Part shown: one piece after another, positions 9,229 through 54,185 of the stretch
How positions within the stretch are numbered: the first letter of the stretch is position 1
Layout of the letters: the number at the start of each line of letters is the position of its first letter
Assembly: GCA_905221615.1 (NCBI GenBank)
Contig: CAJNDT010002802.1
Coordinates: forward strand, 199,001-263,000
Length of the DNA: 64,000 bases
Source: Symbiodinium sp. CCMP2592
Lineage: Eukaryota > Sar > Dinophyceae > Suessiales > Symbiodiniaceae
Direction: 5' to 3'
The notes under the pieces: model-generated
Told to the model about the DNA's origin: nothing
What the model saw: the letters and a program-made list of their open reading frames with translations, nothing else
Databases searched by the model: none
Translations under genes and position numbers: made by a program

Positions 9229-9299
9229 AACTCAGCTTGAGCAACAGCATGCACACACTGCTTGCGAGCCGGTGGCCCTGCAAAGCGTCTTAAGCATGC

Positions 9300-12900: not shown

Positions 12901-12904
12901 TGGT

Positions 12905-25998: not shown

Positions 25999-27204
25999 AT
26001 GGGGAAGAGGGTCGGCCCTCGATCACGATGGCGGCCTGATGGCCGCCGCAGGCGCACCCAAGGAGAAATCGCCAAACGGAAGGCCAAAGCTGCAGAGCGG
26101 GCTGCTCAGGCAGCTGCCCAGGACCAAGACCAGGATCCGACAGACTCTGAGGAGGATGAGGACGGCCCCGAAAGGGAGCCGGTCCCGGCTGACAGAGACG
26201 CGGAAGAAGCAGACGATCAACCCCCAGAGCACGAGCCTGCTGGAGACAGTGTGGAGGTTCTCAATGATCCCAGTTCTGAAGAACAGCTCGAACTGCCACG
26301 CCTTTCTGGAAGCAGGTACGGGCTGAGGCCGGCCCCCGAAAGGGGAGCCGAAATGCGGCATCGCAGTACCCAACGGGGCTACCATCGCTCCAGATCGCCG
26401 GCACGATCACCAGCGCCGAGAAGAAGCCAGAGCTGGCAGGTCGAAACCTCCAAAGCAATGTCGCAGATCTTGCGACACACGGGGCGAGTACGCGAGGACG
26501 GTTATATCCCAGTGACAGAGCTACTGCGGCACCCACGTCTCCGGCAGGCGGGCGCTACCCTGACGGACATTCAGGAGGCGGTGCACGCCAATGACAAGCA
26601 GCGTTTCCAATTGTCATGGCAAGGGCGCGGGCATGGTCGCGAGCTCCTTATCAGGGCTACCCAGGGCCACTCACAGCAGCAAGTTCAGGACGACCTTCTG
26701 CTCACCCGTATTACGGCCCCACATGAGGTGCCGCTGGCTGTTCACGGAACCTACTTTCGACATTACTCCGCGATTTATCACCAAGGCCTGAAAGCGGGAG
26801 GAGACCGAGGGCAGCGGGCCAGGAAACATGTCCATTTCGCCATGGCCCTACCCAGAGATCAACACAGGGCCACTTCTGGAATGAGGAAAGATGTCGAAAT
26901 CCTTCTTTATCTTGACATTCCACGGGCTCTCCGGGACAACATGCGCCTGTATGTCAGCACCAACTCGGTGGTGCTGACGGAAGGCTTCAATGGATGTATT
27001 CCCATCGACTACATCATGAAAGTGCAATATATGCACCGGCAATGTGCCAATGACGTCCCAGGCGATTCCATTCCATCACCCGGCCGCCTGAAGGCGGCCT
27101 TTGCAGCGATTGGTGTCTCACCTCAGGAAGGAAGCCGCGGCCGCTCGCTTCGACCCCTGCAAGGTCATGCCCTCTTTAATCAGACCACCTGTGATCCTTT
27201 CTGA
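25999..27204 (+). CDS. LINE-encoded KptA/Tpt1-family RNA 2'-phosphotransferase
   Basis: 401 codons from ATG 25999; the frame is open further 5', but this Met opens a basic leader (RWRPDGRRRRTQGEIAKRKA) also seen in the next ORF. An acidic/Pro linker follows, then a complete KptA/Tpt1 domain at about residues 150-345: LRH (R159, H160), DGYIPVTELL, IRATQGHS (R219), HGT (H249), a KHVHFA strand, GMRKD (R296), then YVSTNSVVLTEGF. The family's catalytic Arg-His-Arg-Arg set is intact. Tpt1 enzymes use NAD+ to remove internal RNA 2'-phosphates left by tRNA ligation, and some ADP-ribosylate 5'-phosphate ends. A role in retroelement RNA or end processing is inference. The next ORF starts 292 bases downstream. 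Assignment to the family is firm by motif; the substrate is unknown. Confidence 0.85.
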   Translation: MGKRVGPRSRWRPDGRRRRTQGEIAKRKAKAAERAAQAAAQDQDQDPTDSEEDEDGPEREPVPADRDAEEADDQPPEHEPAGDSVEVLNDPSSEEQLELPRLSGSRYGLRPAPERGAEMRHRSTQRGYHRSRSPARSPAPRRSQSWQVETSKAMSQILRHTGRVREDGYIPVTELLRHPRLRQAGATLTDIQEAVHANDKQRFQLSWQGRGHGRELLIRATQGHSQQQVQDDLLLTRITAPHEVPLAVHGTYFRHYSAIYHQGLKAGGDRGQRARKHVHFAMALPRDQHRATSGMRKDVEILLYLDIPRALRDNMRLYVSTNSVVLTEGFNGCIPIDYIMKVQYMHRQCANDVPGDSIPSPGRLKAAFAAIGVSPQEGSRGRSLRPLQGHALFNQTTCDPF

Positions 27205-27496
27205 CTTTGTTCATGCTCAGGTCCTTTCTCACCCGACTCGCTGTCATCAAGCTCCCACCTCGGCTGCACGACCCCAGTGGTTTGTGCCTTCACCCTCTCT
27301 TTTTGAGGGACCGCTCTCACCCCATCCGCGGTATTGGCAGGCTCGGCCTCTACTTGGGCGCCGCCGCCGCTCCGGACAAAGATCTCGCGACAGGTTTTCC
27401 TCTCGGTCCTTCCTTAGCAAGTTCGTGCTTGATTGCTTCCAGTGCCTAAGCTCTCAGCCGACAGGGTTCGCTGACTTCCTGCAGCATTTCTCCATC

Positions 27497-28087
27497 ATGT
27501 ATAGGCCTGCAGGAGGGCCTAGACAGCACTACAGACCCGATGGCACCAGACGCCGAACAGCCGGCGAACTCGCCAAAAGAGCAGCACGAGCTGCTGCCAA
27601 GGCCCAGGGCACGGACGGAGCTCAACCGTCCCAGTCAGCTACCCCTGCGATGCCGAAAGGGCAGCAGTTGACTGTGGGACAAGGCATGGCTCCACCGCCA
27701 AAGCAGGTGCCAGTCGACGGCCCCACCACGGGTGCCGGAGATGCCTTCACGAACTCAGGAATGGGATCTACGACAGCTACGCCGGCAGCCAACTCCGCTG
27801 TCACTGGATCGCGCCCCAAGGAGTCGCAGAATGCTGGTTCCTGGACACCGGTGCTACCAAAGGCCAGACTACCTCCTCCACCACCTGTTCCTTTGTCCAA
27901 GAAGGCGAGTGGGAAGGGCCTGGGACGAGGACCTCCGCCTGCACCGAAGCAATTGGAGTGGGTTCCTAAACGTACCAAAGCTCCCCCACCGGGCATTGAC
28001 ACAACCCTGGGAGGGGCACAAGCGGCACCAGCGGAACCAGTGAGGCCAGCGACGGCGACCGAAGTCAGACCGGGGAGCCGACCTTGA
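27497..28087 (+). CDS. LINE proline-rich ORF sharing the leader motif of the Tpt1 ORF
   Basis: 196 codons from ATG 27497. The N-terminus (HYRPDGTRRRTAGELAKRAA) matches the N-terminus of the Tpt1 ORF (pattern RPDGxRRRTxGExAKRxAxAA). The rest is disordered and rich in Pro, Ala, Thr and Lys (LPPPPPVPLSKKASGKG; GRGPPPAPKQLEWVPKRTKA), suggesting an RNA-binding or scaffold protein. The frame is open upstream to 27101, but that part lacks protein character. The stop lies 23 bases before the next ATG. No family is recognised; a gag/ORF1-like role is a guess. Confidence 0.5.
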   Translation: MYRPAGGPRQHYRPDGTRRRTAGELAKRAARAAAKAQGTDGAQPSQSATPAMPKGQQLTVGQGMAPPPKQVPVDGPTTGAGDAFTNSGMGSTTATPAANSAVTGSRPKESQNAGSWTPVLPKARLPPPPPVPLSKKASGKGLGRGPPPAPKQLEWVPKRTKAPPPGIDTTLGGAQAAPAEPVRPATATEVRPGSRP

Positions 28088-28110
28088 CAACCACATCATT
28101 GACCCTGCGA

Positions 28111-28926
28111 ATGGATGCTGGTCAACCGCAGAAAAAACGTCGCAGCAAAACAGTGCCGCCGCCAAACACTGCACCTGCCCTTGATGCGCTGCGGCTCAAA
28201 TGGGACTTACTGCTGCGGGTTCACGAGGCAGCGGCTGAACTTCAAGACGCAGATGTACCTCACCTTCTCCACTTATACCAGGCGGCCGGCGGGTATACAG
28301 CAAGACACCATGACTTTCATCTCATGAGAGACAAGCTCATGCAAGAGGGTGTCGTCGGCCCCTCAGGGGTGCCGCTACCTTTGCCTCCAGTGGGTAATTA
28401 CATCCTAAGTCTCGGAGTGAGCATCCTCGGCTTAGAGAGCAGTGGTTACCTACCCCAGATCAGCAGCTCGAGCACGTGCGGGGACCTGATTGAAGCCTGG
28501 TCACTGGCTCTCTGGGAAAGCTCCCGTCGTGATCTGCTCGAACAACTTGGGGAACTTTTTACGCTGTTGCACAGTCTGGTCAGCAACATACCCCGCCGGG
28601 TTTACGATTCCCTCCCATGGAGAATCTCGCTCGAACAGCTGACCATGGTGTTCCACATGTGGCTCGGGTCTCCGGTTGCTCCTGCCCTCACTGATCAAGA
28701 AGCTGCTGCTCCAGGCCCACTTACTCTCCAAGACCGTCTTTTCCGGGCTCGTTCCCTTTCGCCGCGAAGCGGCCCCTTTTCGGAGAGCCGATCCCCTGCG
28801 ATGGAGGAGGCATATATGCTTTCCAGTGTTCCTGCAAGTGCTGAGCCAGGTCCACCCCTACAGTTGTTGCCTGCCCAAGTACTAGCCATCATCTGTAGCC
28901 AGCAACTCCTTTCTGTCGTATGCTGA
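28111..28926 (+). CDS. LINE ORF of 271 aa, helical, unknown
   Basis: From ATG 28111 (MDAGQPQKKRRSKTVPPPN), which begins with a basic, NLS-like cluster. A helical body follows (LRLKWDLLLRVHEAAAELQD; then a His/Tyr-rich segment YTARHHDFHLMRDKLMQEGV; then DLLEQLGELFTLLHSLVSNI), then a Ser/Pro/Arg C-terminus. The composition is convincingly coding. The TGA overlaps the ATG of the next ORF (ATGCTGA at 28920-28926), suggesting coupled re-initiation. The helical body could be a multimerising ORF1-type domain, but no motif identifies it. Confidence 0.55.
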   Translation: MDAGQPQKKRRSKTVPPPNTAPALDALRLKWDLLLRVHEAAAELQDADVPHLLHLYQAAGGYTARHHDFHLMRDKLMQEGVVGPSGVPLPLPPVGNYILSLGVSILGLESSGYLPQISSSSTCGDLIEAWSLALWESSRRDLLEQLGELFTLLHSLVSNIPRRVYDSLPWRISLEQLTMVFHMWLGSPVAPALTDQEAAAPGPLTLQDRLFRARSLSPRSGPFSESRSPAMEEAYMLSSVPASAEPGPPLQLLPAQVLAIICSQQLLSVVC

Positions 28927-29528: not shown

Positions 29529-30672
29529 CCAAGAAGACTATGACCTTGTCTTTCTGCAGGAATCGCACTGGCGATTCACCAACTCCTGGTGCCTGCCTCG
29601 GTTTCATGTCTTTCATAGTGGTACCTCAGACCATCGCTTTCAAGGGTGCATGATCTTGGTGCGCAAGTCTCTAGCTCCCTTCGAAGACATCCGATGGTCC
29701 ACGCCACTTCAGGGCCACCTTCTGCATCTCCGACTCCCCATCAAGGGGCGAGACGTTGACCTAATCAATGTGTACCAATATGCTTTTCACACCGGCCCTG
29801 ACCAGGCAGCCGTTCTACACAAGAGAGAAAGAGTTCTGCACCACCTGGAGAAAACCCTCTCCTCGCTGCCTATTCGTAATGTCTTGCTGATGGGGGGAGA
29901 CTTTAATACTACCGGTACTAGGGACACCCGTGTGTATGGTCCTGGCACCCTAATTAGTCACCACCCCCACGCTGACAGACACCTTCTCGTCAATCTGGCC
30001 TCCACACACAAACTCACGGCCCTCAACACGTGGTGCCGAGGCTCCCAATCCTTTACGTATGAGCACGATAATGCTAAGAGCCACATTGACTTTTTCTTTG
30101 CACGCGAAGCCCAGGTCGATGGCCTTGCCAGGCAGGCCAAACCTGACCATGCTTTTCACCTGTTGCGTTGGAGAGGGGGAGCCCGGCACCACCCAGTCTC
30201 GGTTTCTTTACCCGCGATACACTATCAAACTGCGCCACCTGCCGCCGAAGTGCACCGACACAAGGCTGCCCGGTACGACTCTGAACAACCCAGCTCGTGC
30301 ATTCAAACCTTTCGCGACAGCCTCGCAGAGTCCCTACCAGCCCAACCTACCCCTGAACAGCTCGACGAAGCCTTGCAGTATGCAGCTCGTAAACTGCTCC
30401 CTGCTAGCCGCGGCCCTCCAACCCCGAGTGTTGCCGACAAGGTTCAAGGCACGGTGAAAGACATGTGGACCAGTCGCCAAGTTGCCCTGCGCTATGCGGT
30501 TGATACACTACGTCCCCTGACGGTTCCGGCCCAGATTCGACACTGGCGACAAACCGGAAATCGACTGTGGCTTAGCCTTGCAAATCTGTTCACCGCCTGG
30601 AAGCACCAGGCCCAATACTTGCACCTTCATCGTCAATTACGCAAACGTGGTCGCAAGGCAAACGCGCCTTGA
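29503..30672 (+). CDS. LINE ORF2: APE-type endonuclease domain
   Basis: Continues the endonuclease after the frameshift: DLVFLQESHW (catalytic Glu), LINVYQYAFHTG, LLMGGDFNTTG (Asp/Asn active-site motif), SHIDFFFA, and KPDHAFHLLRW as the terminal Asp-His motif. These are the expected order and spacing of LINE APE-like endonucleases that nick target DNA to prime reverse transcription. The last 150 residues form the helical linker before the RT (LDEALQYAARKLLPASRG; WRQTGNRLWLSLANLFTAWK). The frame ends at 30672, while the linker continues as LDEQLQQAWQADRQGDKSA in the next frame, so a second frameshift lies near 30655. The nominal first Met is not a real start. Confidence 0.85.
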   Translation: MEVQIWLHNQEDYDLVFLQESHWRFTNSWCLPRFHVFHSGTSDHRFQGCMILVRKSLAPFEDIRWSTPLQGHLLHLRLPIKGRDVDLINVYQYAFHTGPDQAAVLHKRERVLHHLEKTLSSLPIRNVLLMGGDFNTTGTRDTRVYGPGTLISHHPHADRHLLVNLASTHKLTALNTWCRGSQSFTYEHDNAKSHIDFFFAREAQVDGLARQAKPDHAFHLLRWRGGARHHPVSVSLPAIHYQTAPPAAEVHRHKAARYDSEQPSSCIQTFRDSLAESLPAQPTPEQLDEALQYAARKLLPASRGPPTPSVADKVQGTVKDMWTSRQVALRYAVDTLRPLTVPAQIRHWRQTGNRLWLSLANLFTAWKHQAQYLHLHRQLRKRGRKANAP

Positions 30673-33600
30673 CGAGCAACTTCAGCAGGCTTGGCAAGCA
30701 GACAGGCAAGGGGATAAGTCCGCAATTTGGCAGGTTATTCGACGCCTAGCACCGAAAACCGCTAGGGTTCGTATTCAACTTCGAGGCGCCAAAGGTGAGC
30801 TGTTGACCAAGCGAGAAGAGGCAAAAAGATTTACTCAGTACTGTGAACAGGTCTACCACCTGCCCCGTGATCTCTCATCTGAGGAGTCCTCTCTCCTTGA
30901 TCAACCATGTGCCGCTACTCCCACCCCTGCTCTGTCACCCGATACTCACAAGTATGCCCAGCCATCTCCGGCCCCCCTGGTGGATGGCCGGCCCCAACAG
31001 GCGCTAACCAGTCATCCTCTCAGTGAGGCCGAGCTTCTGTTGGCGATAAATACTCTCCCTGCCCGAAAGGCCACACCACAGCACCTTGCGCAACTTCTAT
31101 TATGGCACCTTGGCAAGGAGGCGGTAGTACCACACCTTGCTACCCTTTGTGAGAACCTATGGGAGAAGCCTGGGATGTTCTACCAACTATGGGCTGATGC
31201 ATGGGTAGCGTGGCTTCCTAAGCCAGGCAAACCGCCGGACCAGCCTGAGAATCTACGACCTATAGCATTGACGGAGGGAGGGGGTCGCATCGTTGTCAAA
31301 GCCTTAACCATGCGCCTTCGGCCCATCTTTGCCGAAGCCACTAAACTGTGGCCCCAGTACGCTTACACAACTGGCAGAAGCATCGACCATGCGATCATAC
31401 GTGCCTTGCATCACTGCTCCCAGGTCCAACAAATCCTGGCGTCGCAACGTCTTACACTACGAGAACGTCGTCACACTGGCCGGAAGCCCACCTCTTGTCA
31501 AGGGGGAGTAACGCTCTCTATTGATACGAGCAAAGCGTTTGACACTGTCAACAGACAGGTTCTCGAGCAAGAGCTGCGGGCGGCCCGTGTACCGGAGCCG
31601 GAGCTGGCAGTTATCCTCAATCTCCACCACTGCATTGGCTACTGGCCTGCAGGCCAGGACCCCACAACTCGCGTGGCGAGTGAAAGGGGTGTGCGGCAGG
31701 GATGCCCCCTAGCACCGAGCTTATGGACTCTCATCACCATCGCACTGTTTCGTGCGCTGGCAGGTGTTACCTCCGTCACATGGCTGCAAGAGGACACCAC
31801 GATGTTCGCGGACGATCTACTACTCCAGTGGATCGTCCACCGAGTTCAGGCTTTGGAGAATATGGTGGACCTCATAGCCCACACCTTTCGGATCCTCGCT
31901 CAGCTTGGCCTTCAGGTTCAGCATCGGAAAACACAACTCATTGTGGCATATAAAGGCAGGCAGGCCACACAATGGTGGCGCGCCCACACGGCCACCACTG
32001 CGGAGGGCCGCTTCCTGCTTATACCCCAACCTGGCAGCAAGGCACTCCGCCTGCCCATTGTGACTAAGCTGACGTACCTAGGCATTATCCTCTCCTATGT
32101 AGATGCCACCACTGCCACTGTTGACCACCGTCTGCAGGTAGCCGAAGCGCAGCGTGCTCGCCTTCTCAAGGTCCTCCACTCCCGGACACTGCCCACGACT
32201 AAGAGAGTCCAGCTCTGGCAAGCTTGTGTTCGGAGCTCTGCTCTGTATGGTCTACACCTAGTCGACTTACAGCAAAGGCATGTAGTCCGGATCACAGTCA
32301 CCTTGGTTAGGCATCTGAGAGCCATCGCACGCAGCTTTGCACACATGACTCAGGAATCTAGCAGAGCGCTGCTCGAGCGTCTGAACGTAGAGGACCCCTT
32401 ACTTTCCTTGCTGCAAAGGGGCCAAAAACTTCTTGTCAAGACTCGTGAGTCTAGCGATCCCATGGTTGCCAGGCCTCGGATCATGCGCTGGTTGGCTCAT
32501 ATTACTGAATCCAAACTGGCGCTGACCTCGCACCTGGACCGGACCGTAGCGGAGCCCTTGGTTATTCACCCGTCACCTCAAGATGCCGACCTCCAGTCTG
32601 AGGCAATCGCAGCTGCTTCTCCCACGCTCCTGCCCGGCCCCCTGAAAGGGGTGCCGTACGGAACCCCTGTGGCTGGCAAGCACGGTCCTAGGAACACTTG
32701 TTTCTCCTGCCCAACCTGCGACCTCTGGTTTCCGGACCTGGCTACTCTCAAAAGACACCACAATCAGTTCCATGAAACCCCCCTACCCAACCCTCTCCTT
32801 CAGATAGACGCTGCAGAGGTGCGCAAGCACAGCATCGATGGGATGCCCGTTTGTATGCACTGTCGTAAAGACTTCACCACCTGGCATAACTTTAGGAGAC
32901 ATATCGCGCAAGGACACTGTACCCAACATCGACAACAGCTGGACCCCTCCTTAATGATGTCATCCGAGGATACAGTCTCTGCATCACGTAGCCACACTGA
33001 CCCGGTTCGTGAGCCCTCTCATCCCTCTTCAGTTCCCACACCTACCACCGCTGACCCTCCCCAAGAGTCACTAGGAACCACAGTGCTTGAAGAGCAGATT
33101 CCTGCTACAGTGACCGAGGTGACTACGACAGCCACGGCCCCGACCCCGGGAGTGCTGTACACTGTTGCTGCTCCCACGGGCTCGCCGCTTGATGGCTTGC
33201 TGCCGGAAAAACCTGAGGACTGGCTACGATTCGCTCGACAGCCCAAAGCTCAGGAGCTTCTGCGGCAATTCTGCACTACGTGCGGACAGTGGCTCGTATC
33301 GGTCAAGAGCGTCAAGTTGCACTATCGCTCAGTGCATCAGGCTCTATATACGACGCACGGTGCGTCTGCGGCAGCAGATTGCCGGAAAATGGGGCATCTC
33401 CTTTCACCCTGCGTCTTTTGCGGCACTAAGGTTACACGAACCGACCAGCATGCTGCAACATGCCCGGTCCTTTGGCAAGCCCGCATCTGTTGTCTTGCTC
33501 AGAGTAACTTGGTTTCACCTGCCCCCGCTCTGATCGCCCCTCCCAATTGCGATGGCGACGGAGAGCTTGCAAATGGATCTCGACCAGGAAGAACAGAGTG

Positions 33601-35344
33601 TGTTTGGAGGGCTTCTAGGGAAAAGAGCCCTACAGACAGACTTGACAGAGAATCCAACCAAATATCAGCATCCAGGAGGCAAAGGCCCTCCGCCGAATCG
33701 GAGCAGCGGAACGCGCCAACAGCAGCAACCGTTGACGGGACGCGGCCGCCATGCGGCCCCCTTTCAGGGGAGCCGGGGCAGCGACGTCCCAGACAATCGC
33801 AATGGACCCTCCAAGATGCCTTCGGGAGATCATGCTCTGCTGCATCGAGTCGCAAAGGCCCTCATCGTCCAAGCAGACTATCTGTCACGCCTTCAGAGCG
33901 ATCACACTGTCATCTTCACATTTCGAACAGGCAACGGCCCACAGCTGATGGTGCCGCTTCTCCAGGAGGTGGCGACAACTTGGCGCGAACAACGACAACA
34001 GAACAAGGTGACCCGCTCCTTGAAGCAAACTCTCATCCAATATCTTGCAGCCGAACTGGTGACCAGGATCAATGCCTTCGCAACCGACACCGAATCCCAG
34101 AAGAGGGCCCAGGAACTAGGATGGATCACGTCGGAGGGGGAGTTCAACTTCTTGGACTGGGACTTCGAGGACAAGAAGCTCGTCCCCCGGCAGGAGGTGA
34201 CGCTTACTCACGATCAAATCCTCACCGATGCCAAGAGACTCAAAGCCCTGCTGAAGAATCCAGACCTAGTCTTGAAGTTCAGCGGAGGCCGCAACGCCAA
34301 GCCCGACTCGACATCCGAGACAGCGACATTTGTGTTGGAGCTGTCCATGCAGCAACCAGAAGCATCGGAGGCGATGGCGATCTTCCGGAAATGGTATGCC
34401 AACTCAGCGCTCCTGCTCCTCTCTCTCCGGCTCAAACCGGCCCGCCCAGAGCGGTCGCCGTTGATCAAGGAGATCCAGGAGGCCGTGGGATGGTAGATGG
34501 CAGGGAACTCAGATCTGTGTGCATTCCTGCGGCACTGCTCCATCTTGCACTGCACAACCCAGACAATCTTTGTTACTTAAATGCCACTACGTATCTGCTA
34601 GCCTACATTCAACACCTTGCAGGACCCTGTGCTCCAGTCCATGGCACCCAGTCTCTTGAGCGATCACTGCAAGATTTGTTGAGTGCTCCTGTCCCTACAC
34701 CTGGAGAGCGGATCACCATCCCTGACCTTCCCGGGTGGCACTCTTCTCTCAGAGGCTGGACGAACCTGCATCGCCAGCAAGATTGTCTTGAGCTCATACA
34801 TCACTTGTTTGACCAACACTGCCCAGCACACATGCGATGTCAGTGGGAGGCACGACCGATACCAGGTACTGTTGCGGCACGCAGACCCCTTATCAGTGGT
34901 CTATTCAACATTGACCTCCCTCTCCCTAAGAAAGCCTCCAGTGCCACCATCCAGGAATGCATTATCAGCTGGCACGAACAGAAGATTCCCCACGGCCTTC
35001 TCCATGCACCGCCCTACCTGCTCACTAGCCTTGCCCGATATGCCAACCCCACCAAGGGGAAAAACAAGACGCGTGTCCCCTGTAAGGCCATGCAGCGAAT
35101 CAGTTTCCTTGTCTTTCGAGGTCCTGGACATGAGATCCAATGGGCCACCTACGAGCTGGTGGCGGGGATTTTACACCTGGGGCTCAGCAAGGCCACTATC
35201 GTGCATTTCTTGCGCATCCACGTGATGCCCAAAACTTTGCATCCCAGGTGTCTGCAACTTCACGGCCAGGAGATGTGGCACCTGCAAGTGCATCGGGGAT
35301 TTCGGCCCCCTCGGGGAGACCGTCGGCCCCTTCGGGGAGCCTGA
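30578..35344 (+). CDS. LINE ORF2: reverse transcriptase with C2H2 zinc fingers (frame open into the USP-like domain)
   Basis: The frame carries a full LINE reverse transcriptase: TGRSIDHAI, SIDTSKAFDTVN (motif A, Asp at 31522), GVRQGCPLAPSLW (motif B), FADDLLLQW (motif C at about 31804) and TYLGIIL. A long helical thumb region follows. Then come three C2H2 fingers with identical C-x2-C-x12-H-x4-H spacing (CPTC at about 32709, CMHC at 32857 and CTTC at 33273) and one CCHC (CVFC...HAATC). Coding character is lost from about 33545 to 34490, where another frame looks real, yet no stop occurs before 35344. From 34490 the same frame encodes the USP Cys box. The nominal start is not biological; the ORF really continues from the endonuclease. 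Confidence 0.85.
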   Translation: MQICSPPGSTRPNTCTFIVNYANVVARQTRLDEQLQQAWQADRQGDKSAIWQVIRRLAPKTARVRIQLRGAKGELLTKREEAKRFTQYCEQVYHLPRDLSSEESSLLDQPCAATPTPALSPDTHKYAQPSPAPLVDGRPQQALTSHPLSEAELLLAINTLPARKATPQHLAQLLLWHLGKEAVVPHLATLCENLWEKPGMFYQLWADAWVAWLPKPGKPPDQPENLRPIALTEGGGRIVVKALTMRLRPIFAEATKLWPQYAYTTGRSIDHAIIRALHHCSQVQQILASQRLTLRERRHTGRKPTSCQGGVTLSIDTSKAFDTVNRQVLEQELRAARVPEPELAVILNLHHCIGYWPAGQDPTTRVASERGVRQGCPLAPSLWTLITIALFRALAGVTSVTWLQEDTTMFADDLLLQWIVHRVQALENMVDLIAHTFRILAQLGLQVQHRKTQLIVAYKGRQATQWWRAHTATTAEGRFLLIPQPGSKALRLPIVTKLTYLGIILSYVDATTATVDHRLQVAEAQRARLLKVLHSRTLPTTKRVQLWQACVRSSALYGLHLVDLQQRHVVRITVTLVRHLRAIARSFAHMTQESSRALLERLNVEDPLLSLLQRGQKLLVKTRESSDPMVARPRIMRWLAHITESKLALTSHLDRTVAEPLVIHPSPQDADLQSEAIAAASPTLLPGPLKGVPYGTPVAGKHGPRNTCFSCPTCDLWFPDLATLKRHHNQFHETPLPNPLLQIDAAEVRKHSIDGMPVCMHCRKDFTTWHNFRRHIAQGHCTQHRQQLDPSLMMSSEDTVSASRSHTDPVREPSHPSSVPTPTTADPPQESLGTTVLEEQIPATVTEVTTTATAPTPGVLYTVAAPTGSPLDGLLPEKPEDWLRFARQPKAQELLRQFCTTCGQWLVSVKSVKLHYRSVHQALYTTHGASAAADCRKMGHLLSPCVFCGTKVTRTDQHAATCPVLWQARICCLAQSNLVSPAPALIAPPNCDGDGELANGSRPGRTECVWRASREKSPTDRLDRESNQISASRRQRPSAESEQRNAPTAATVDGTRPPCGPLSGEPGQRRPRQSQWTLQDAFGRSCSAASSRKGPHRPSRLSVTPSERSHCHLHISNRQRPTADGAASPGGGDNLARTTTTEQGDPLLEANSHPISCSRTGDQDQCLRNRHRIPEEGPGTRMDHVGGGVQLLGLGLRGQEARPPAGGDAYSRSNPHRCQETQSPAEESRPSLEVQRRPQRQARLDIRDSDICVGAVHAATRSIGGDGDLPEMVCQLSAPAPLSPAQTGPPRAVAVDQGDPGGRGMVDGRELRSVCIPAALLHLALHNPDNLCYLNATTYLLAYIQHLAGPCAPVHGTQSLERSLQDLLSAPVPTPGERITIPDLPGWHSSLRGWTNLHRQQDCLELIHHLFDQHCPAHMRCQWEARPIPGTVAARRPLISGLFNIDLPLPKKASSATIQECIISWHEQKIPHGLLHAPPYLLTSLARYANPTKGKNKTRVPCKAMQRISFLVFRGPGHEIQWATYELVAGILHLGLSKATIVHFLRIHVMPKTLHPRCLQLHGQEMWHLQVHRGFRPPRGDRRPLRGA
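33552..34496 (+). CDS. LINE downstream ORF of 314 aa, unknown
   Basis: From ATG 33552 (MATESLQMDLDQEEQSVFGG) the product is globular and well balanced, unlike the competing frame. A Gln/Pro/Gly-rich linker is followed by a helical and strand-containing region: DHALLHRVAKALIVQADYLS, VIFTFRTGNGPQLMVPLLQE, GEFNFLDWDFEDKKLVP, LTHDQILTDAKRLKALLKNP and SMQQPEASEAMAIFRKWYAN. No known domain is recognised. The stop TAG overlaps the ATG of the USP ORF (ATGGTAG, 34490-34496), suggesting coupled translation. Its position between RT-zinc fingers and USP is unlike standard LINEs. Confidence 0.6.
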   Translation: MATESLQMDLDQEEQSVFGGLLGKRALQTDLTENPTKYQHPGGKGPPPNRSSGTRQQQQPLTGRGRHAAPFQGSRGSDVPDNRNGPSKMPSGDHALLHRVAKALIVQADYLSRLQSDHTVIFTFRTGNGPQLMVPLLQEVATTWREQRQQNKVTRSLKQTLIQYLAAELVTRINAFATDTESQKRAQELGWITSEGEFNFLDWDFEDKKLVPRQEVTLTHDQILTDAKRLKALLKNPDLVLKFSGGRNAKPDSTSETATFVLELSMQQPEASEAMAIFRKWYANSALLLLSLRLKPARPERSPLIKEIQEAVGW

Positions 35345-35790: not shown

Positions 35791-35831
35791 TCGACATAGA
35801 TGATATAGCGAGCGTACTGTAGTTCAATAAA

Positions 35832-36263
35832 TGCGAACGGACTGCGATGCCTTGTCAAGTTCTAAGGTGTCACTATAAGAGCTGTGAGCATGACCGTGTA
35901 AAGTGCAAGAGAAGGGGGCACGCTACGCGTCCCTCGACTCTAAGGGGGGCACGCTACGCGTCCCTCGTCTTTACCTTTCTATGTGACCGCCCACGCAACG
36001 TTTGGCTCAAGTCAATGCCCATAGCTAAGTGCTATAAGTGTCTTCTATCCTGAGCAATCAGAGCTATCCCGTTGCACAGACGAACCGCCGCCGGCAGTGA
36101 GTGCAAAAGGAACGGCCGCCGGTTCTGCCTGCATAGGATTGCACGTGTGGAAGTGTGAGAGAGACAGGGTCCAGTCTGTGGAGAGTGCAAGCCAGCCACA
36201 CCTACATTCATTATAGCTCTGGTGGGGAGAGCAGCAACATAGTCGAGATCAATTCCCCACGCA
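35832..36263 (+). repeat. 5' LTR of the giant copia element
   Basis: 432 bp, TG...CA, matching 55148-55576 apart from about 18 changes. Inside are two direct copies of GCACGCTACGCGTCCCTCG (near 35919 and 35949) and TTTGGCTCAAG at 36001-36011. The LTR should carry the promoter and polyadenylation signals; no TATA box is evident. Confidence 0.92.
36001..36011 (+). other. Spliced-leader-like 11-mer in the 5' LTR
   Basis: TTTGGCTCAAG equals the 3' end of the dinoflagellate spliced leader and is conserved in the 3' LTR at 55315-55325. It may be a relic of a trans-spliced transcript captured into the LTR, or chance. Confidence 0.35.
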
Positions 36264-36275
36264 GGTTATCAGCCG
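36264..36275 (+). promoter_or_regulatory. Candidate primer-binding site
   Basis: GGTTATCAGCCG directly follows the CA end of the 5' LTR, where the tRNA primer-binding site should lie. GGTTATCA would pair with the 3' end of a tRNA ending in TGATAACCA, lacking the first T. The tRNA identity is not resolved. Confidence 0.45.
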
Positions 36276-36327
36276 TACGCGGCTCTGCCTTTCTACAGCA
36301 ACGACTACTTGATCTACTACGACCACA

Positions 36328-47222: not shown

Positions 47223-47334
47223 GGTCTGACCAGACGGATCGGGGAAGGGTGCCTCTTACGGAGAACCCGGAACCGTGAAGTCGAGTAGGGTGTAGGGACT
47301 TCTCTCCTACGGAGGAAGGACCGAACCCCGAGCC
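47223..47334 (+). promoter_or_regulatory. 112-base spacer before the 1698-aa ORF
   Basis: The only clear noncoding gap between extra ORFs of the copia element. It contains CTCTTACGGAGAACCCGGAA and CTCTCCTACGGAGGAAGGA, a near-repeated CTnnTACGGAG block. It could hold a trans-splice acceptor (several AGs) or a re-initiation signal; nothing decides. Confidence 0.25.
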
Positions 47335-50300
47335 ATGGCTGAAAGCTACAATGCCTACGAGCTGGCCTTCGAAGGAGTGGACCACGAAGAAGTTTTCCCA
47401 TCTGGTGGGATGATGCGGACGTTTCTGAAGTTCCACAAGTTTCTGCAGATGTATTCTGAGGACTCGTCGCAGAGCGTTTCGCTCCCGCCAAAGATTACGA
47501 AAGACAAAGTGGTCGACAATGATCTCATTCGCACATGGGCAGCTTTCAAAGCACCTCCGTTGGTCTTGCTGTTCACGTGTGCAAATCTGTCGCCAGGAGG
47601 GGATCTTTCCATTCGAGTCCGAGAAATCCTCAAGGCTTGCTTATTTGCCGCCCCGGAGGAGTACATGGACAAACCCTATGGGGAGATACTCGCCATGGTC
47701 ATCAAGTTTGGTGGAGGTCTCAAACACATTGTTGCTGACTACGGAGGGAAGTTTCATGCCATCACAAGATTTATGGTGGATGAGGAAGTGATCCGCGATG
47801 ATGCAAAGTTGGCTGTGGTTGAACTGGAACAAGAAAGAAAACAAGTTCGGTTCGACTTGAACACTGCAACCAGGAACATTGTCAGTGCGGACGTGTACTA
47901 CAATCTCGCCGTTCTCATCAATTCCGTGGAGACGCCCTACCAGGCCGTGACAGACACGAGGATTCAACAATGGTATACGGTGAATCAGGACTACTACCAC
48001 AAGTTGCCTATGTCAGGCAGAGCACCTGACCAATCCGACCTGTTGGGAGAGCCTACGTTATGTAGGGTGTGCAAGCTGATGTACATGTTCGCAAAGCACA
48101 CTGGGTATGGGCTTCGGACCTACAACCAGGAATGTGCAGCGGGCAACGATGGCGCTACGCCAATCAACGTTCACCAGCTGGCTTTGATGATGCGCACATT
48201 GCCTCAAGGCATGGGACATCCGCTCGCCTTTGCGATGAATTCACTCCAGGCGTTCAGTGTTTGTCTCCACGTGCTTCATTCCTATGTATCATGGATTGAT
48301 CCACAAACTGGACTCCCGCATTATCGATGGTCTAATGACGTGCTCCCCGATTCCGACTACACCACGTATGCTTTCCTCAAGTACCATGTGGATGCCGTAT
48401 GTGCAGCTCAGGACAAGAACGGTTTCCAATTGCCGGATGCGTTCCGTGGCTACACCTGGAATCAATGCGGAGTTGAATCTGGGTACGTGGTCGACTGCTC
48501 TACCAAACGCGCCACATTGGGCATATGGGAAGCGGAATTCCAACAGATGAGGGCACCAAATCCGCTTATGCAAGATGATGGCCTATTTCCGCCCAACCTT
48601 CAACGGCATCCTAGCTGGGTATACTCAACGGGGAGAGTTGCGATGCCTACGGCAAGCAACCTCGAACCGGAAGGAATCGTGCACCCTGAGCATGGAAGAA
48701 CGCCGGAACAATCGCAAGGATCCGCTGCCGGACCTCGAGCCACCCCTAGCCACGGACCAAAGAGGGCAAGGACGGACGAGGCAACGGCATCGGCGTCGTC
48801 ATCTTCTGCGGCACCTCCTCCACAACAACCGCCTTCGCAACCGGAAGAGGAACCATCGCAACCGACATGGGAGGAAGCTCCAATCCCCGCTGGCGCTCAG
48901 GAAAGTTGGTACCATTATGTCAACATCGATGAGAAGGGCTGTCGTTCGATCTTGCTGACGACGACCCGTGATCAAGACGAGTACCCACCTACCATTGATG
49001 AGACGCCAAAGTTTGTGGCCAACCACGACGTGGGGACCACACCGATTCAGCATTACGTCAGAAGACTGGTGACCTATTTGGCAAGGATCCGTTCCGTCTC
49101 TCAAAATGATGACAAGGGTCTCAACCTGAAGGTCTACGTGAAGCTGAGTACAAAGGTGTGGTTACGGATGTATTCACGGCTGTACCATGCATTGGCATTG
49201 GTATCATGCGTGCATCTTCCTTCTCCTCCAATGCTTACCTCGGCAGTGATGATCGAGGCAGATAGCGATCTTGTCGACAACGATGACATTCCGGAAGAAG
49301 CAAGGATCAACACCATGAACACGCTGAACGGATTTCGCAATAGTTTGGGTATGGGTGGCAAACCTGATGCCGCGACTATGCGCTCTCAGTGCACAATCCT
49401 CGTCCAGGACTTTGACATGGTTGCAAGGACCAGGGGATCAACGCACACGGTGAGAGAGAACCTCGGCATGCATGGATGGAGCGAGATCTACATTGTGAGC
49501 CCGTCGATCACCACAGGTGCCAACTACAACTTCCAAGTCACAAAAGGATCGTTGGAATCTGTGAATGCGACATTGGATGGCTTGACCGAAGAGCAGCTTG
49601 CAACCGTCACACTGCATTACCATCTGTCTCTCCAGGCAATCCTCATCGAGAACATGTCTTTTCCGATGAGTGAGGTCGGAGACGGAGCAGCGATTCGCAC
49701 TGACTTGCAGCGACAGCTCAAGGTGACGTACGTTGACCCTATCATTGCAGCAGGGAAGCGTACCACGCGCCCTCCAATTGTCAACATCAACCACGACTTA
49801 CGGTTCGTTGGAGCAGCTAGCAATTACCTTCAGCACAAAGCTTCTCTGTTCAACGGTTTCCACGCGCTGGGAATGTATATTGAACTGGAGTTGCGAGCCC
49901 GAGCATGCGTGGTGATTCATGGATCTTCGTTTTGGTCAAGAATGTACAGCCAGATGAAACATGCGTCATCAGGCGTGCATACACTGTCAGCCGAAAAGGT
50001 GCCAGCACCGGACAATCGGGTCAGGTTCAAATTGGGCTTCGCTATCTACGAGAAGCAGCTGTTCTGCGAGAAGATGGTATCCACGTGCTTTGTTGAGGCA
50101 TCGAAAGTTCGCTCATGGGACGAAACTGTCCGCGCCGACTCAGTCGCTCACCCGTCGCTTGTCGAGATTTGGGAGGACAAGAGTGAAGTCAAGACGTCCA
50201 CCAAGATTTCGCAGACATGGTTCACGGGAGAACAGCAGCAACAGATCAGGTCGGGTGCCCAGGGTGACACGGTCGCTGAATCGTCCGCAGTCACCTGGCA

Positions 50301-52431
50301 GGACTTTGACATCGCCATGACCGTCCCCGAAGCCTACTACGACAACAGGCACTACTGGTTCCGGATCGACACCTACGCGACCCCGAACACCGGCTATGTC
50401 AAAGGGAGAACGTTCTATTGCCCTGGATGTGACGCAATGAAGTTGGCTGAGTGCTACGCACAGGCCTTCTTCAAGCCGACTGGAAACGGGTATCCTGGAC
50501 ACTGCATTGGGTGCGCGCATACTTCAGCCTTGAAGATGCAGCATCAAATCGGCTCCTTCAATGACTTGGTCGCGTCCCAGAAGTACACCTTGGCTTGCGC
50601 AAAGCACCTTTATGACCTGAGGCTTCAATTTGTGGACCCTCGCATGGACATCAAGGAGTTCCTCAAAGCTTGTGCGGAAGTGGTCTACGAAGACATTGGC
50701 AAGACGGTTTCTCACTACGGTGGTCTCCGAATCACAGCCAGTCAGGCCATCGAGTACGCGGCATGGGGAAAGGCCAAACAGTTGGCATGGGACAGAGGAT
50801 ACGACTCCGAAGGCAAGACATGCTACATCTGCTACTACGATGCCGGGAACTGCGCTTATGCTGGTTTCATGAGAATGCTTTTGACTCCGGAGGAGCGCCA
50901 AGAATGCTACAGAGGGTCAGCCTTGCCCAAGGAGGAACTCCTGGGTGACACGGTGGAGCTGGCGCTCGGGCTTCTTACAATTGCAATGAGACACCCAAGT
51001 CATTTTCCGAATTGGGGTGGCCTTGAGGGAGCAAATGCGTGCGCGAGGGGAATCGAAAGATCATTCTTCCGCTACGCGTCGGCCGAAGCTATCGAGCTGA
51101 TCACGGTTGACTCCCCGCGCAAAAGGACACCGCCCAAGAAGAATGAAGCAGTCGCTGAGATCGTCAACAACATGTCCGCTGACCTCGTGATTGATTTCAC
51201 AGTGATCGTCGATGGTGATATCTACCCTGTAGAGATTGCGAGAACCGACGAGACACAGGCCGCTGACAACGTCACGGACGATCCAGGGTTCTCCGTTGCT
51301 CCACCAATACCTGCACAGGATGTAGATGTGGATGCGCAACCCGAAGAAGAACAAGGTGCAGAAGACCCTGATCCCAGGCAGATGATTCGTGAAGGATTTG
51401 TCGCGCAGCTTCAGGACTATGTGGGAGTACTCGCTCAGGGCGAAATGTCGGTCGGAAGCGATCGCCTCACGTTCTGTATCGCTTGTGGCAGTGATCAACA
51501 CCATCTGTCCAATTGCACGGAAAATGCTGCGACCCGGGATCTGGTACTTCGAGGCATCCAGATCATCAAGGAAAGCCTTCTTCGATATCCACGTCGAATA
51601 CCTCCACAAGAGGCTGAGCCAATGGACGTTGACACCACAGACCATGTGAGTGTTGCATCCTCGGACCGACGACCCAAGGCCAAAGCCCGACCGCGACGCG
51701 GAGGCGAAGCCGTACGGGGTGATGTGGTCTTGATCCGTTATGAGAACAAACACAATCTCTGCACGGATGTGGAGAACCGTCGGGGCCTACATGATGCTTG
51801 TGGCGTACCACTGCAGGAATCAGGACCAGAGAATAGCCAGCGGGTGGTGGACCTCATTGAGCAGCTTTCGGACCATCGCGACCGACGCCTACCTCAACGA
51901 GGAGACCGTCCTAGCTTTGATTATGATGATACCATTCAGGGCTACACCAATGCAGGCTACGAATGCATCGGCGGCGGAAGGCCAATCCGGTGCGGGATTC
52001 TCGACCTGATCCCAACCAAGGGTGCAAGCTTCATCCACAATCGATGGGACATCGTGAACGAAGTTGTCCTTCGCAACATCACCCATCATCGCAGAAGGAA
52101 CGCGGATTGGGCGCTATCATGCATTCAATCTGACCTGCGTCACAGAATCGCCAGGCGCCCAGGCTCGGAATGGCTTGACAACAGGTGCCAGGTGGCATTC
52201 AGCAGCGTCATTCGATGTGATGAAGGAGGGTGGGTGCTGATCGAGGATTTGGTGAGGCATGAGCAACTATGGACCCATGACAGCAGACGCATCACAGAAG
52301 CGGTCTCAAGGACCGATGAGCAACAGAGGAAGAGAGTGTACAATGAAAGACTCAGCTATTGTTCCAAGGGAACATGCTCGCAGCCACGAGACGCCACAAG
52401 GCCAAGATTCGGCTGCAGTTCCTGGGAGTGA
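47335..52431 (+). CDS. copia 1698-aa accessory protein; C-terminus starts a KptA/Tpt1-like domain
   Basis: From ATG 47335 (MAESYNAYELAFEGVDHEEV). The N-terminal 430 residues are globular (YLFAAPEEYMDKPYGEIL-type helices), then a Ser/Pro/Gln linker (about 460-520). Residues 530-1330 form a large globular region with a four-Cys zinc site (C1029, C1032, C1057, C1060). A CCHC knuckle CIACGSDQHHLSNC (C1381, C1384, H1389, C1394) is followed by a basic segment (RRPKAKARPRRGGEAVRGD). Residues 1590-1680 carry SDLRH (R1602, H1603), GGWVLIEDLV (W1633) and ITEAVSRTDEQQRKRV, matching the N-terminal lobe of KptA/Tpt1; the rest of that domain is in the overlapping next ORF. No other domain is recognised. 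Such a protein after pol is not normal for copia elements. It could be a capsid or RNA-handling protein, or captured host genes. Confidence 0.8.
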   Translation: MAESYNAYELAFEGVDHEEVFPSGGMMRTFLKFHKFLQMYSEDSSQSVSLPPKITKDKVVDNDLIRTWAAFKAPPLVLLFTCANLSPGGDLSIRVREILKACLFAAPEEYMDKPYGEILAMVIKFGGGLKHIVADYGGKFHAITRFMVDEEVIRDDAKLAVVELEQERKQVRFDLNTATRNIVSADVYYNLAVLINSVETPYQAVTDTRIQQWYTVNQDYYHKLPMSGRAPDQSDLLGEPTLCRVCKLMYMFAKHTGYGLRTYNQECAAGNDGATPINVHQLALMMRTLPQGMGHPLAFAMNSLQAFSVCLHVLHSYVSWIDPQTGLPHYRWSNDVLPDSDYTTYAFLKYHVDAVCAAQDKNGFQLPDAFRGYTWNQCGVESGYVVDCSTKRATLGIWEAEFQQMRAPNPLMQDDGLFPPNLQRHPSWVYSTGRVAMPTASNLEPEGIVHPEHGRTPEQSQGSAAGPRATPSHGPKRARTDEATASASSSSAAPPPQQPPSQPEEEPSQPTWEEAPIPAGAQESWYHYVNIDEKGCRSILLTTTRDQDEYPPTIDETPKFVANHDVGTTPIQHYVRRLVTYLARIRSVSQNDDKGLNLKVYVKLSTKVWLRMYSRLYHALALVSCVHLPSPPMLTSAVMIEADSDLVDNDDIPEEARINTMNTLNGFRNSLGMGGKPDAATMRSQCTILVQDFDMVARTRGSTHTVRENLGMHGWSEIYIVSPSITTGANYNFQVTKGSLESVNATLDGLTEEQLATVTLHYHLSLQAILIENMSFPMSEVGDGAAIRTDLQRQLKVTYVDPIIAAGKRTTRPPIVNINHDLRFVGAASNYLQHKASLFNGFHALGMYIELELRARACVVIHGSSFWSRMYSQMKHASSGVHTLSAEKVPAPDNRVRFKLGFAIYEKQLFCEKMVSTCFVEASKVRSWDETVRADSVAHPSLVEIWEDKSEVKTSTKISQTWFTGEQQQQIRSGAQGDTVAESSAVTWQDFDIAMTVPEAYYDNRHYWFRIDTYATPNTGYVKGRTFYCPGCDAMKLAECYAQAFFKPTGNGYPGHCIGCAHTSALKMQHQIGSFNDLVASQKYTLACAKHLYDLRLQFVDPRMDIKEFLKACAEVVYEDIGKTVSHYGGLRITASQAIEYAAWGKAKQLAWDRGYDSEGKTCYICYYDAGNCAYAGFMRMLLTPEERQECYRGSALPKEELLGDTVELALGLLTIAMRHPSHFPNWGGLEGANACARGIERSFFRYASAEAIELITVDSPRKRTPPKKNEAVAEIVNNMSADLVIDFTVIVDGDIYPVEIARTDETQAADNVTDDPGFSVAPPIPAQDVDVDAQPEEEQGAEDPDPRQMIREGFVAQLQDYVGVLAQGEMSVGSDRLTFCIACGSDQHHLSNCTENAATRDLVLRGIQIIKESLLRYPRRIPPQEAEPMDVDTTDHVSVASSDRRPKAKARPRRGGEAVRGDVVLIRYENKHNLCTDVENRRGLHDACGVPLQESGPENSQRVVDLIEQLSDHRDRRLPQRGDRPSFDYDDTIQGYTNAGYECIGGGRPIRCGILDLIPTKGASFIHNRWDIVNEVVLRNITHHRRRNADWALSCIQSDLRHRIARRPGSEWLDNRCQVAFSSVIRCDEGGWVLIEDLVRHEQLWTHDSRRITEAVSRTDEQQRKRVYNERLSYCSKGTCSQPRDATRPRFGCSSWE

Positions 52432-54185
52432 GAGTGAAGGACCCCGGCGTGGAAACTCTTGGATCCGCAGGTTCGAACATGTTGGTATCGATTCCTGACC
52501 AGATCACAGAGATCCAGAACAATGATCGTTGCCGGCACAGCCAGAGGTACCTGAACGTTTGCAACGGCTGGGTGAAGCCATGGGCAGTTCGGGCTACAAG
52601 TGGTCACTCTGCGCACTCAGATCCCCAGAACAATTTGCTTCAGTTGGACAAGAACAGGTTCGCAATATCTCCATCTATGACCCTCTTGCAACGTCTTGGA
52701 GGCGCGTTCCACGCTACGGCATGCCGCAACTTGGATTCCATTGTCACGCAAGGCATCATGCCTGGTTCGGAGGACCCCGACGGGGACTTCGACCATAGGC
52801 GCCAATTTCGAGGCAAGCAAGGCGGCAGACTCCACAGCTATTGGGGGGTATTTGCACCGTTCGATCACCGGAATGCGACGACCAAGATGCGGGTACATGG
52901 ACGAGATGCCAAGCACATGCCGCTGGCGGTCCTCCATGTCCCATCGCAGGACCTTGCACGAGAAGATGGACGTATCACAGACAGCGGCATCATGATCGTT
53001 GGCCGAACGATACCGTTCCAGTTCGTCAAGGAGGTATGGTTTTGCGTCCCGAACCCTCAAGATACACACTCTTTCGCTCTGGTGGAAAAGATCTACGATG
53101 AACGGTTGGAGAAAGAGATGGTGTTGGACTACAATGCATCACCTTTGCTCCCTGAGTTCGAGAGATACCGAACACCAAGCAAGATCATGGAATTGCTTTG
53201 CGAGATGCCTCCTGGACCCCACGACACCAGCAAGGAGCAGATCATTCGAGACCTTACGACTGTCCTGGAGTCCCACAGGGAGAACACGGTTCGGCATCAC
53301 TACATGGACAAAGGGATCAAGTTTGTCATCAAGAATTGGCGACCCGAAGACCTACGCAGAGACGAGGATGGAAGGAGAATGAGGGTGTGCCCGGCATGCT
53401 ACAACATCGTTCCAGCATGCTTCTCCCGATGCACGTCTTGCTGGTCACAATTCGTTTCTAGCGGATACTACCAAGGTTCTCCACAACGGGAGACTCCTAC
53501 GGAGATCCCCAGTGACTTCATTGCTCAGACAATGGAAGCCGCGGCAGCAGCAGTGCCTGAGGCGCCCGAAGAGGAGCAGGAAGCCATGGAGGTAGAGACC
53601 GTTGCGGAACCTGAGGAAATCCCAGAACCATCTGTCATCGCGGAGGACGATCCAGAACAGGAACCTGATGAAGAAATGGACACAGAGCCAGGAGAGGACT
53701 TTGATGACGCAGTACCAGATGCAGTTGCACAGGAACGCCGTCCCGTCCTCATCGCCGGCCAGTCTTTGAACATCGATCCTGAACTACAACTCGCACGTAC
53801 CGCCATGCAGCCATCCTACTACTCAGGGAAGCGAAATGCCCATTGCATTGACGCCAACATGGTCGCTCTTTCGTATATGGCATTCGTGGTATGCAGAACC
53901 ATCTACAAGGCTTGGTCAGGATTCGCGAAGTGGGCTACTATGCCGTTGTTCCAGATGAAGGAGAATTTCGCACTTGGCCAACGCTATGATGTGCTCGGAA
54001 AGTGGGGATCTTTGGCTGTAGTGGACAGAGAGACGGGTGTGAGCAGGGATGTGACTGACGAGGAGATCATTCGCTTTGCCAAGGAGCCTGAGAACCTCAA
54101 GCAGTACGATCCCAACGGGACTTACACTTTGAAGCGCTTCCGGACGAATCAGATGCTTTCGTTGCTTACACGGGAGCCAACATGA
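52359..54185 (+). CDS. copia 608-aa accessory ORF; C-terminal lobe of the KptA/Tpt1-like domain
   Basis: Overlaps the previous ORF by 73 bases in another frame. Residues 70-250 hold the remaining KptA/Tpt1 motifs: VRATSGHS (R78), FHAT (H118, the family's HGT with Gly to Ala), RLHSYWGVF, HGRDAKHMPLAVLHV (R182), then DGRITDSGIMIVGRTIPFQF and VKEVWF. A zinc site follows (C344, C347, C358, C361), then an acidic tail of about 100 residues. The final 150 residues are globular (IDANMVALSYMAFVVCRTIY). The two lobes in two frames imply a one-base lesion near 52370, in a GGGA run, or programmed frameshifting. With the HGT change, activity is uncertain. The stop overlaps the next start (ATGA). Confidence 0.75.
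   Translation: MFQGNMLAATRRHKAKIRLQFLGVRVKDPGVETLGSAGSNMLVSIPDQITEIQNNDRCRHSQRYLNVCNGWVKPWAVRATSGHSAHSDPQNNLLQLDKNRFAISPSMTLLQRLGGAFHATACRNLDSIVTQGIMPGSEDPDGDFDHRRQFRGKQGGRLHSYWGVFAPFDHRNATTKMRVHGRDAKHMPLAVLHVPSQDLAREDGRITDSGIMIVGRTIPFQFVKEVWFCVPNPQDTHSFALVEKIYDERLEKEMVLDYNASPLLPEFERYRTPSKIMELLCEMPPGPHDTSKEQIIRDLTTVLESHRENTVRHHYMDKGIKFVIKNWRPEDLRRDEDGRRMRVCPACYNIVPACFSRCTSCWSQFVSSGYYQGSPQRETPTEIPSDFIAQTMEAAAAAVPEAPEEEQEAMEVETVAEPEEIPEPSVIAEDDPEQEPDEEMDTEPGEDFDDAVPDAVAQERRPVLIAGQSLNIDPELQLARTAMQPSYYSGKRNAHCIDANMVALSYMAFVVCRTIYKAWSGFAKWATMPLFQMKENFALGQRYDVLGKWGSLAVVDRETGVSRDVTDEEIIRFAKEPENLKQYDPNGTYTLKRFRTNQMLSLLTREPT

Follow-up and report, generated by a model that had tools for sequence, protein, structure and literature searches.

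Tpt1/KptA-type domains as recurring parts of LINE and Ty1/copia retrotransposons in Symbiodinium sp. CCMP2592

A stretch of 64,000 nucleotides from the dinoflagellate Symbiodinium sp. CCMP2592 (contig CAJNDT010002802.1, positions 199,001 to 263,000 of the forward strand; the window) was found to hold two retrotransposons with a domain of the RNA 2'-phosphotransferase (Tpt1/KptA) type. One is a long interspersed nuclear element, LINE A, and the other a Ty1/copia element with long terminal repeats (LTRs). In the genome as a whole the domain type was observed in four element families, LINE A, LINE B, LINE C and copia, and in LINE A and copia alike the gene was shown to be a recurring part of its retrotransposon. 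The preliminary description of the window had claimed a Tpt1-like domain in two unrelated retroelement classes at one locus, and this was borne out: the LINE A domain scored 156 bits for Pfam family PF01885 (cut-off 26) and that of copia copy L033 scored 31.9 bits, the window copia copy not being in one frame. The explanation of the whole judged best, at a probability of about 0.45, is that the LINE Tpt1 was captured long ago, possibly once, and is now carried by at least three families, that copia carries a separate Tpt1, and that the enzymes would remove scars from element RNA.

The PF01885 match in LINE A covered residues 250-432 of the 504 amino acids of the first open reading frame (ORF). 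LINE A, LINE B and LINE C are non-LTR retrotransposons with an endonuclease, a reverse transcriptase (RT; RVT_1) and multiple copies, LINE C being found in two places only. Pairwise identities between the three were 23-26% for RT and 29-31% for the endonuclease. At the C-terminus of the LINE A pol ORF (window 34733-35188) a ubiquitin-specific-protease-like (UCH) domain scored 19.9 bits, under the cut-off of 23.9. By eye, the pol frame is apparently left for about 1 kb at window 33534-34496, where a long open frame lies in another phase, and given this departure the window copy of LINE A is probably damaged.

Association of the domains with their elements was studied in the whole genome (1.098 Gb, 5383 contigs), and all genome counts are lower bounds. 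The best 150 of 1550 candidates were scored in the KptA search (152 matches, 150 used), the best 104 of 1910 in the endonuclease search (107 matches, all used) and the best 82 of 2705 in the LINE B RT search (all used); counts of neighbours are counts among the matches listed. A count of the domains lying next to RT or integrase genes had been proposed beforehand; here KptA was counted against RT and endonuclease neighbours. All 15 listed LINE A KptAs had a same-strand LINE A endonuclease piece 2.9-3.4 kb further downstream, and none had one within 6 kb upstream. In five other LINE A copies whose long flanks were read (L017, L020, L024, L025 and L026), KptA likewise preceded endonuclease and RT. 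KptA is thus a gene of the LINE A element, perhaps absent from some copies.

In LINE B the order is different, with the KptA ORF placed downstream of the endonuclease-RT ORF (RVT_1 79.1 bits). KptA was found 3-9 kb downstream of 68 of the 82 scored RTs, in 66 cases at 5.0 kb. By score and profile range 132 PF01885 hits were assigned to LINE B, and 11 loci were read individually; RT or endonuclease was present within 12 kb upstream of 76 of the 132 and downstream of five. When LINE B loci were compared with locus L012, similarity stopped 3081-3145 bases past the KptA ORF start in 8/11 loci, at a G/T-rich simple repeat. The exceptions were L009, where similarity continued through simple repeat as far as 3320, L021, a divergent locus (83% identity) in which it stopped at 1998, and L013, without a match. 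The common end point places the KptA ORF inside the repeated unit. Three LINE B KptAs at C890:314951-335747 (L009-L011) share one orientation and a spacing of 10.1 kb, apparently head-to-tail, and pairs 10.1-10.6 kb apart were seen on C5312, C459 and C980.

The copia element of the window is a Ty1/copia LTR retrotransposon, as judged from its LTR pair (95.9% identical over 434 columns) and its RVT_2 domain. No match to the integrase core was obtained at E up to 0.01, the only match being to SH3_retrovirus, below cut-off. The Tpt1-like domain is encoded in an extra ORF past pol. In the window copy the reading frame shifts partway through the domain, between about 52347 and 52431. In copy L037 the extra ORF is a single open frame of 2509 amino acids, Tpt1-like domain included, and by our own count this frame is given for 22 of the 116 copia-domain places scored. 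No other Pfam family was matched in the extra ORF, either at window 47296-52431 (E up to 0.01) or in four pieces of L037 (E up to 0.5). A second copia gag-pol copy lies at window 58728-63889, in the same orientation at an offset of 18.37 kb and sharing 95-98% identity with the first over the stretches listed, and another copy of the extra ORF was seen outside the window on the same contig.

The copia searches covered the best 116 of 1149 candidates for the Tpt1-like domain, the best 95 of 1947 for the first part of the extra ORF (94 used, the window row being left out) and the best 72 of 4550 for pol (72 of 73 rows used, a second piece of one locus being left out). The 116 domain places, the window's own counted in, were 98-100% identical. 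A same-strand partner within 20 kb was listed for 18 of the 72 pol hits; the distance was about 8.85 kb, or 7.6 kb where the match was to the N-terminal piece, in 17 cases and 17.9 kb in the remaining one, and opposite-strand partners within 20 kb numbered zero among the matches listed. Eight stretches were taken at pol hits without a listed partner, of which one fell outside its contig and one was only 189 bases long; the domain was found in 5/6 of the readable loci. The domains of LINE A and copia thus recur in other copies, each at constant spacing with its element, and neither is therefore a chance neighbour; absence from other copies, which had been named beforehand as a finding that would speak against the two-class claim, was not the rule among the copies examined.

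LINE B and LINE C scored as highly as LINE A. KptA was matched at residues 451-638 of the 665-amino-acid LINE B ORF with 136.4 bits (cut-off 26), and with 136.1 bits in a 757-amino-acid LINE C ORF ahead of the endonuclease/RT region (RVT_1 31.6 bits; two identical places). N-terminal to KptA, the LINE B ORF has a stretch resembling PARP-like ADP-ribosyltransferases (residues 227-276, L012:6740-6889; 21.0 bits, under the cut-off of 26.7). The C-terminus of the LINE B pol ORF (L012:3366-3881) matched a USP/UCH domain at 32.5 bits, over the cut-off of 23.9. Relatives of the LINE B ORF with 38-60% identity were present in other records, of which those with a name are S. microadriaticum, Symbiodinium sp. 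CCMP2456 and KB8. PF01885 was matched in 17/17 aligned relatives and the PARP-like stretch in 9/17, both at E up to 1. Among 12 proteins matched by LINE A, the only clear relative was P0001 of the same species, and none was clear outside Symbiodinium sp. CCMP2592. One JGI metagenome protein, P0002 (776 amino acids), has several KptA-type stretches in tandem.

The catalytic tetrad of CthTpt1 is R18, H19, R68 and R121 (PMC6333775); the third residue appears there as Arg66 in one place and as Arg68 elsewhere, and Arg68 was taken here. In an alignment with structure 6e3a the tetrad maps to the motifs LRH, K-x-R-F and R-x-H-V-H. The tetrad motifs (LRH, KxR[FY], RxH) were kept in 23/23 LINE loci read (11/11 LINE A, 11/11 LINE B and 1/1 LINE C), and so was the HGT motif of NAD+ binding. 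Judged by these motifs and the profile scores, the LINE domains are almost certainly Tpt1-family enzymes. Among the relatives of LINE B, P0025 has KQRC, P0030 ends before the last motif and P0029 was unmatched by the search pattern.

The copia domain is very probably a true Tpt1 derivative as well, and it is filed as Tpt1-like rather than as a proven member because HAT stands in place of HGT. The C-terminal piece of the window copy scored only 17 bits for PF01885, under cut-off, because the frame changes inside the domain, and the piece of L033 was over cut-off. Three relatives, at 77, 44 and 45% identity, contain the domain (P0034, P0035 and P0036, the last with only part of it). P0036, from Symbiodinium sp. 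KB8, starts with a stretch that by eye resembles the end of the window's pol ORF. Convergence in short motifs, without Tpt1 kinship, is a quite improbable alternative. In addition to the L033 score, it is opposed by the wider local KptA profile made without copia rows, which gave 24.0, 18.6 and 17.4 bits for L037, P0034 and P0035 against 8.4 for the best of 4000 shuffles, with the truncated P0036 (4.7) below. A PDB profile search with the three relatives returned, at E up to 10, two RNA 2'-phosphotransferases as sole chains, and the motif order LRH - (E)GGWV - (V)RATSG[HQ]S - HAT - RxHSY (RLHSY) is kept, with an insertion before RATSG. Several results nevertheless weigh against a Tpt1 identity and for convergence. 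At full length P0034 and P0036 matched nothing in Pfam (E up to 1), P0035 reached 13.9 bits, the best E of the PDB search was 0.049, and the hhalign probability was 51.6%. When the profile was limited to host-type eukaryotic rows, L037, P0034, P0035 and P0036 reached 14.4, 10.1, 7.8 and 1.7 bits, and the best shuffle 5.9. K-x-R-F was absent from 9/9 own-genome copies and 3/3 relatives, and HAT replaced HGT in 9/9 own copies, P0034 and P0035, P0036 ending earlier. LRH and RxHSY were present, and the QRY of the own copies was Q in P0034 and P0035. When RslTpt1 loses the corresponding arginine, step 2 of the reaction becomes 210-fold slower, compared with a mere threefold slowing of step 1 (PMC6333775). 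Because K-x-R-F is missing, and by analogy with these data, the copia enzyme may be a step-1 enzyme.

Selection on the domains was estimated from the ratio of nonsynonymous to synonymous substitution (dN/dS). A ratio of at most 0.22 was found in 11 of the 13 pairs kept, which share sequences and so lack independence. For the LINE A KptA, dN/dS was 0.135 between the window and C4962 (dS 1.0), 0.20 between the window and C353, and 0.14 between C353 and C4962. For the whole 665-amino-acid LINE B ORF compared with L012 it was 0.15 for L021 (dS 0.73), 0.18 for L010, 0.19 for L009 and 0.21 for L022, and the copia domain gave 0.17-0.22 in four pairs with L037. Left out were L038 (0.835; an in-frame stop dropped by the aligner upsets the codons), L027 (identical to L012) and L023 (a frame of 598 amino acids, the limit being 600). 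KptA is under constraint in the LINEs, more weakly than the core enzymes in LINE A.

These values bear on the view that the domains are passengers, captured by chance and persisting with no role in transposition. Any cargo would be amplified by elements present in many copies, and gaps in the association can be cited for this view which also count against the domains being element genes throughout. Among the matches listed, which do not equate to absence, 13 LINE A endonuclease pieces (6 contigs) had no KptA on their contig, 14/82 LINE B RTs had no KptA, and 56/132 LINE B KptAs had no RT or endonuclease within 12 kb upstream; copia locus L044 lacked the Tpt1-like domain. Contrary to the explanation judged best, constraint is also uneven: in the window-C4962 pair RT (0.082) and endonuclease (0.043) had lower ratios than KptA, and L028 and L019 gave 0.54 and 0.32 against L012. 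Passenger status is all the same highly improbable in view of the low ratios at dS 1.0 in the LINE A KptA and at 0.73 in the LINE B ORF, the tetrad kept in every LINE locus read, and the retention of the domain by relatives at about 50% identity.

One KptA locus outside these LINEs, C4512, has a 242-amino-acid open frame with 164 bits for PF01885, and a KLSSLLRH stretch whose LRH lies 119 bases upstream of this frame, from which an intron was inferred. C4512 is the one locus found that appears to be a host-type Tpt1 gene with an intron, and thus the separate host copy that the preliminary description had suggested looking for; the next best place in this search was 39% identical (best 150 of 257 candidates). 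In a tree of 30 rows, a split with support 100/100 set the LINE and eukaryotic KptAs apart from those of bacteria and viruses. The three LINE families were on one side of a branch with support 56/94, and LINE B and C grouped at 49/9. Approximately unbiased (AU) tests of sets as one clade gave p-AU of 0.336 for A+B, 0.355 for A+C, 0.033 for A+host and 0.357 for A+B+C+host. The bacterial and viral rows used were 10 of 80 and 6 of 22 loci fetched. The 30-row tree left out four copia rows, P0012, P0027 and 6/16 bacterial and viral rows; an earlier tree left out P0036 and P0027. In that earlier tree copia had a branch length of 4.3 and could not be placed, and the long branches of LINE C, the host gene, P0012 and copia make finer statements unsafe.

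A clade of LINE A with the host gene is disfavoured by these tests. The LINE domains may be of old origin near the host gene (p-AU 0.357), and the three possibly stem from one old capture. Tree and sequence suggest that copia carries a separate, very divergent Tpt1. Independent or old capture had been proposed for the two domains, and the proposal stands in part. Neither looks like a recent insertion of the host gene (p-AU 0.033 for LINE A; branch of 4.3 for copia), the outcome named beforehand as contrary to it; independence applies at most to LINE versus copia, the three LINEs being able to group.

Of the causes named beforehand for a putative shared pressure on retroelements, spliceosomal trans-splicing should leave no 2'-phosphate and is for that reason an unlikely source of substrate. 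The preferred, still tentative mechanism is the erasure of scars on religated RNA. Element RNA would be cleaved by nucleases of the host and rejoined by a putative ligase whose joints retain a 2'-phosphate. Tpt1 encoded by the element, and present on its own ribonucleoprotein, would erase this scar, so that the RNA is spared renewed cleavage and degradation. The copia enzyme, having no recognisable second-step arginine, may halt after ADP-ribosylating the RNA phosphate. In yeast lacking Tpt1, religated HAC1 mRNA that bears a 2'-phosphate undergoes cleavage and decay (PMC6456296), which would give a selfish RNA a reason to carry its own Tpt1. Two points weigh against scar erasure or limit it. 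A host-type Tpt1 locus is present, so the host could supply the activity, and in the same yeast experiment the RT primer-extension product extends past the 2'-phosphate joint (PMC6456296), which makes a simple block of RT a weak idea.

Protection of RNA or cDNA ends is an unlikely alternative, in which the element enzymes would ADP-ribosylate 5'-phosphate ends as a shield. Human TRPT1 and S. coelicolor KptA do ADP-ribosylate 5'-phosphorylated RNA ends, and the TRPT1 cap guards the phosphate from phosphatase (PMC6582358). The PARP-like stretch of LINE B would fit such a role, but its match is weak, and copia lacks K-x-R-F, whereas any change of a tetrad residue to alanine abolishes the TRPT1 activity (PMC6582358). 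Counter-defence, in which invading RNA would receive a 2'-phosphate or ADP-ribose tag from the host or from competing elements, for the element enzymes to remove or forestall, is distinctly unlikely. It would agree with the same type of activity in two retroelement classes of one genome and with the strong divergence of the copia version, but the selection seen is purifying, not positive. With considerable reserve, two unrelated retroelement classes armed with an RNA-repair or RNA-ADP-ribosylation enzyme might represent a new functional class of accessory gene, with two ADP-ribosyltransferase-type domains in one ORF downstream of RT in LINE B and, in copia, a modified Tpt1 halting at ADP-ribosylated RNA.

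Uptake of enzymes by several retrotransposon classes is already known in the genus, and KptA is known from a few RNA viruses. SymbioLINE-Dnmt and SymbioDIRS-Dnmt3 (de Mendoza et al. 2018, PMC5890265) are likewise Symbiodinium retrotransposons of more than one class, multi-copy, with an acquired enzyme domain under purifying selection, and the LINEs among them have the enzyme in an ORF upstream of RT. Their enzyme is a cytosine methyltransferase, and the word 'phosphotransferase' occurs 0 times in the main text of that paper, which describes Symbiodinium copia as having no DNMT domain, in contrast to the Tpt1-like domain in copia here. No match to DNA_methylase (PF00145) was found in the six LINE A ORFs scanned (E up to 0.01). 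With cellular Tpt1/KptA/TRPT1 (PF01885) the LINE versions share the domain, the tetrad motifs and HGT; they differ in being retrotransposon-encoded in larger ORFs, and copia differs also by HAT, the missing K-x-R-F and the insertion before RATSG. The KptA of some RNA-virus polyproteins also belongs to an RNA-based replicon and was suggested to act in RNA processing, but the carriers are viruses, and 'transpos' occurs 0 times in the main text (PMC9503650). Insect LINEs with helicase domains derived from RNA viruses (PMC5563155) have an acquired RNA-acting domain too, with another enzyme and in another host. No report of Tpt1/KptA/TRPT1 in retrotransposons was found among the matches listed in searches of open-licence PMC papers, a scope that has preprints outside it and does not establish absence in print.

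The features of both elements in the window are given in Table 1. In addition, long ORFs on the minus strand at window 7016-7981 and 7780-9231 (together 7016-9231) look protein-coding by eye, and window 11168-13074 is a degenerate repeat with WAPGLDGWAAAKDLG-like units in all three plus frames.

Table 1. Positions of the LINE A and copia features in the window.
Feature	Positions	Strand	Basis
LINE A first ORF, 504 amino acids, with KptA/Tpt1 domain	25690..27204	+	ORF list, Pfam PF01885
KptA/Tpt1 domain proper; motifs LRH, KQRF, IRATQGHS, HGT, RKHVH	26437..26985	+	Pfam, motif reading
Further LINE A ORFs, 27092-28087 and 28000-28926	27092..28926	+	No Pfam match; similar ORFs in other copies
LINE A endonuclease (Exo_endo_phos), 37.5 bits	29476..30672	+	Pfam
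LINE A reverse transcriptase ORF, RVT_1 72.6 bits; C2H2 zinc-finger and USP (UCH) matches below cut-off	30521..35344	+	Pfam
copia 5' LTR	35832..36264	+	LTR pair alignment
copia gag/protease ORF; CCCH zinc finger; aspartyl-protease-like match below cut-off	36313..40731	+	ORF list, Pfam
copia pol ORF (RVT_2, 34.4 bits, cut-off 31.6)	40674..45338	+	ORF list, Pfam
Extra copia ORF past pol, first part; window copy leaves the frame within the Tpt1-like domain	47296..52431	+	ORF list, genome search
copia Tpt1-like domain in two frames: LRH in the first; VRATSGHS, HAT, RLHSY in the second; ends approximate	52135..53000	+	Pfam, motifs
Extra copia ORF past pol, continuation in another frame	52347..54185	+	ORF list, Pfam, genome search
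copia 3' LTR	55148..55577	+	LTR pair alignment

The elements also call for care in annotation. P0001, named Trpt1, comes from a contig matching a LINE A locus found here, and P0026-P0030, named TRPT1, kptA or RNA 2'-phosphotransferase and known from proteins alone, are related to the LINE B ORF.

In fungi, Tpt1 is indispensable for tRNA splicing; its ablation in E. coli or mouse is without phenotype, and its role is described as unclear where the fungal-type ligase is absent (PMC6333775). The elements are abundant and partly near-identical, and the question is therefore open to biochemistry and RNA mapping. The retention of Tpt1 by retroelements under selection marks 2'-phosphorylated or ADP-ribosylated RNA as a likely hurdle for selfish RNA, and suggests that the retrotransposons of a coral-symbiont alga may be genuinely hindered by damage to their RNA or by its tagging.

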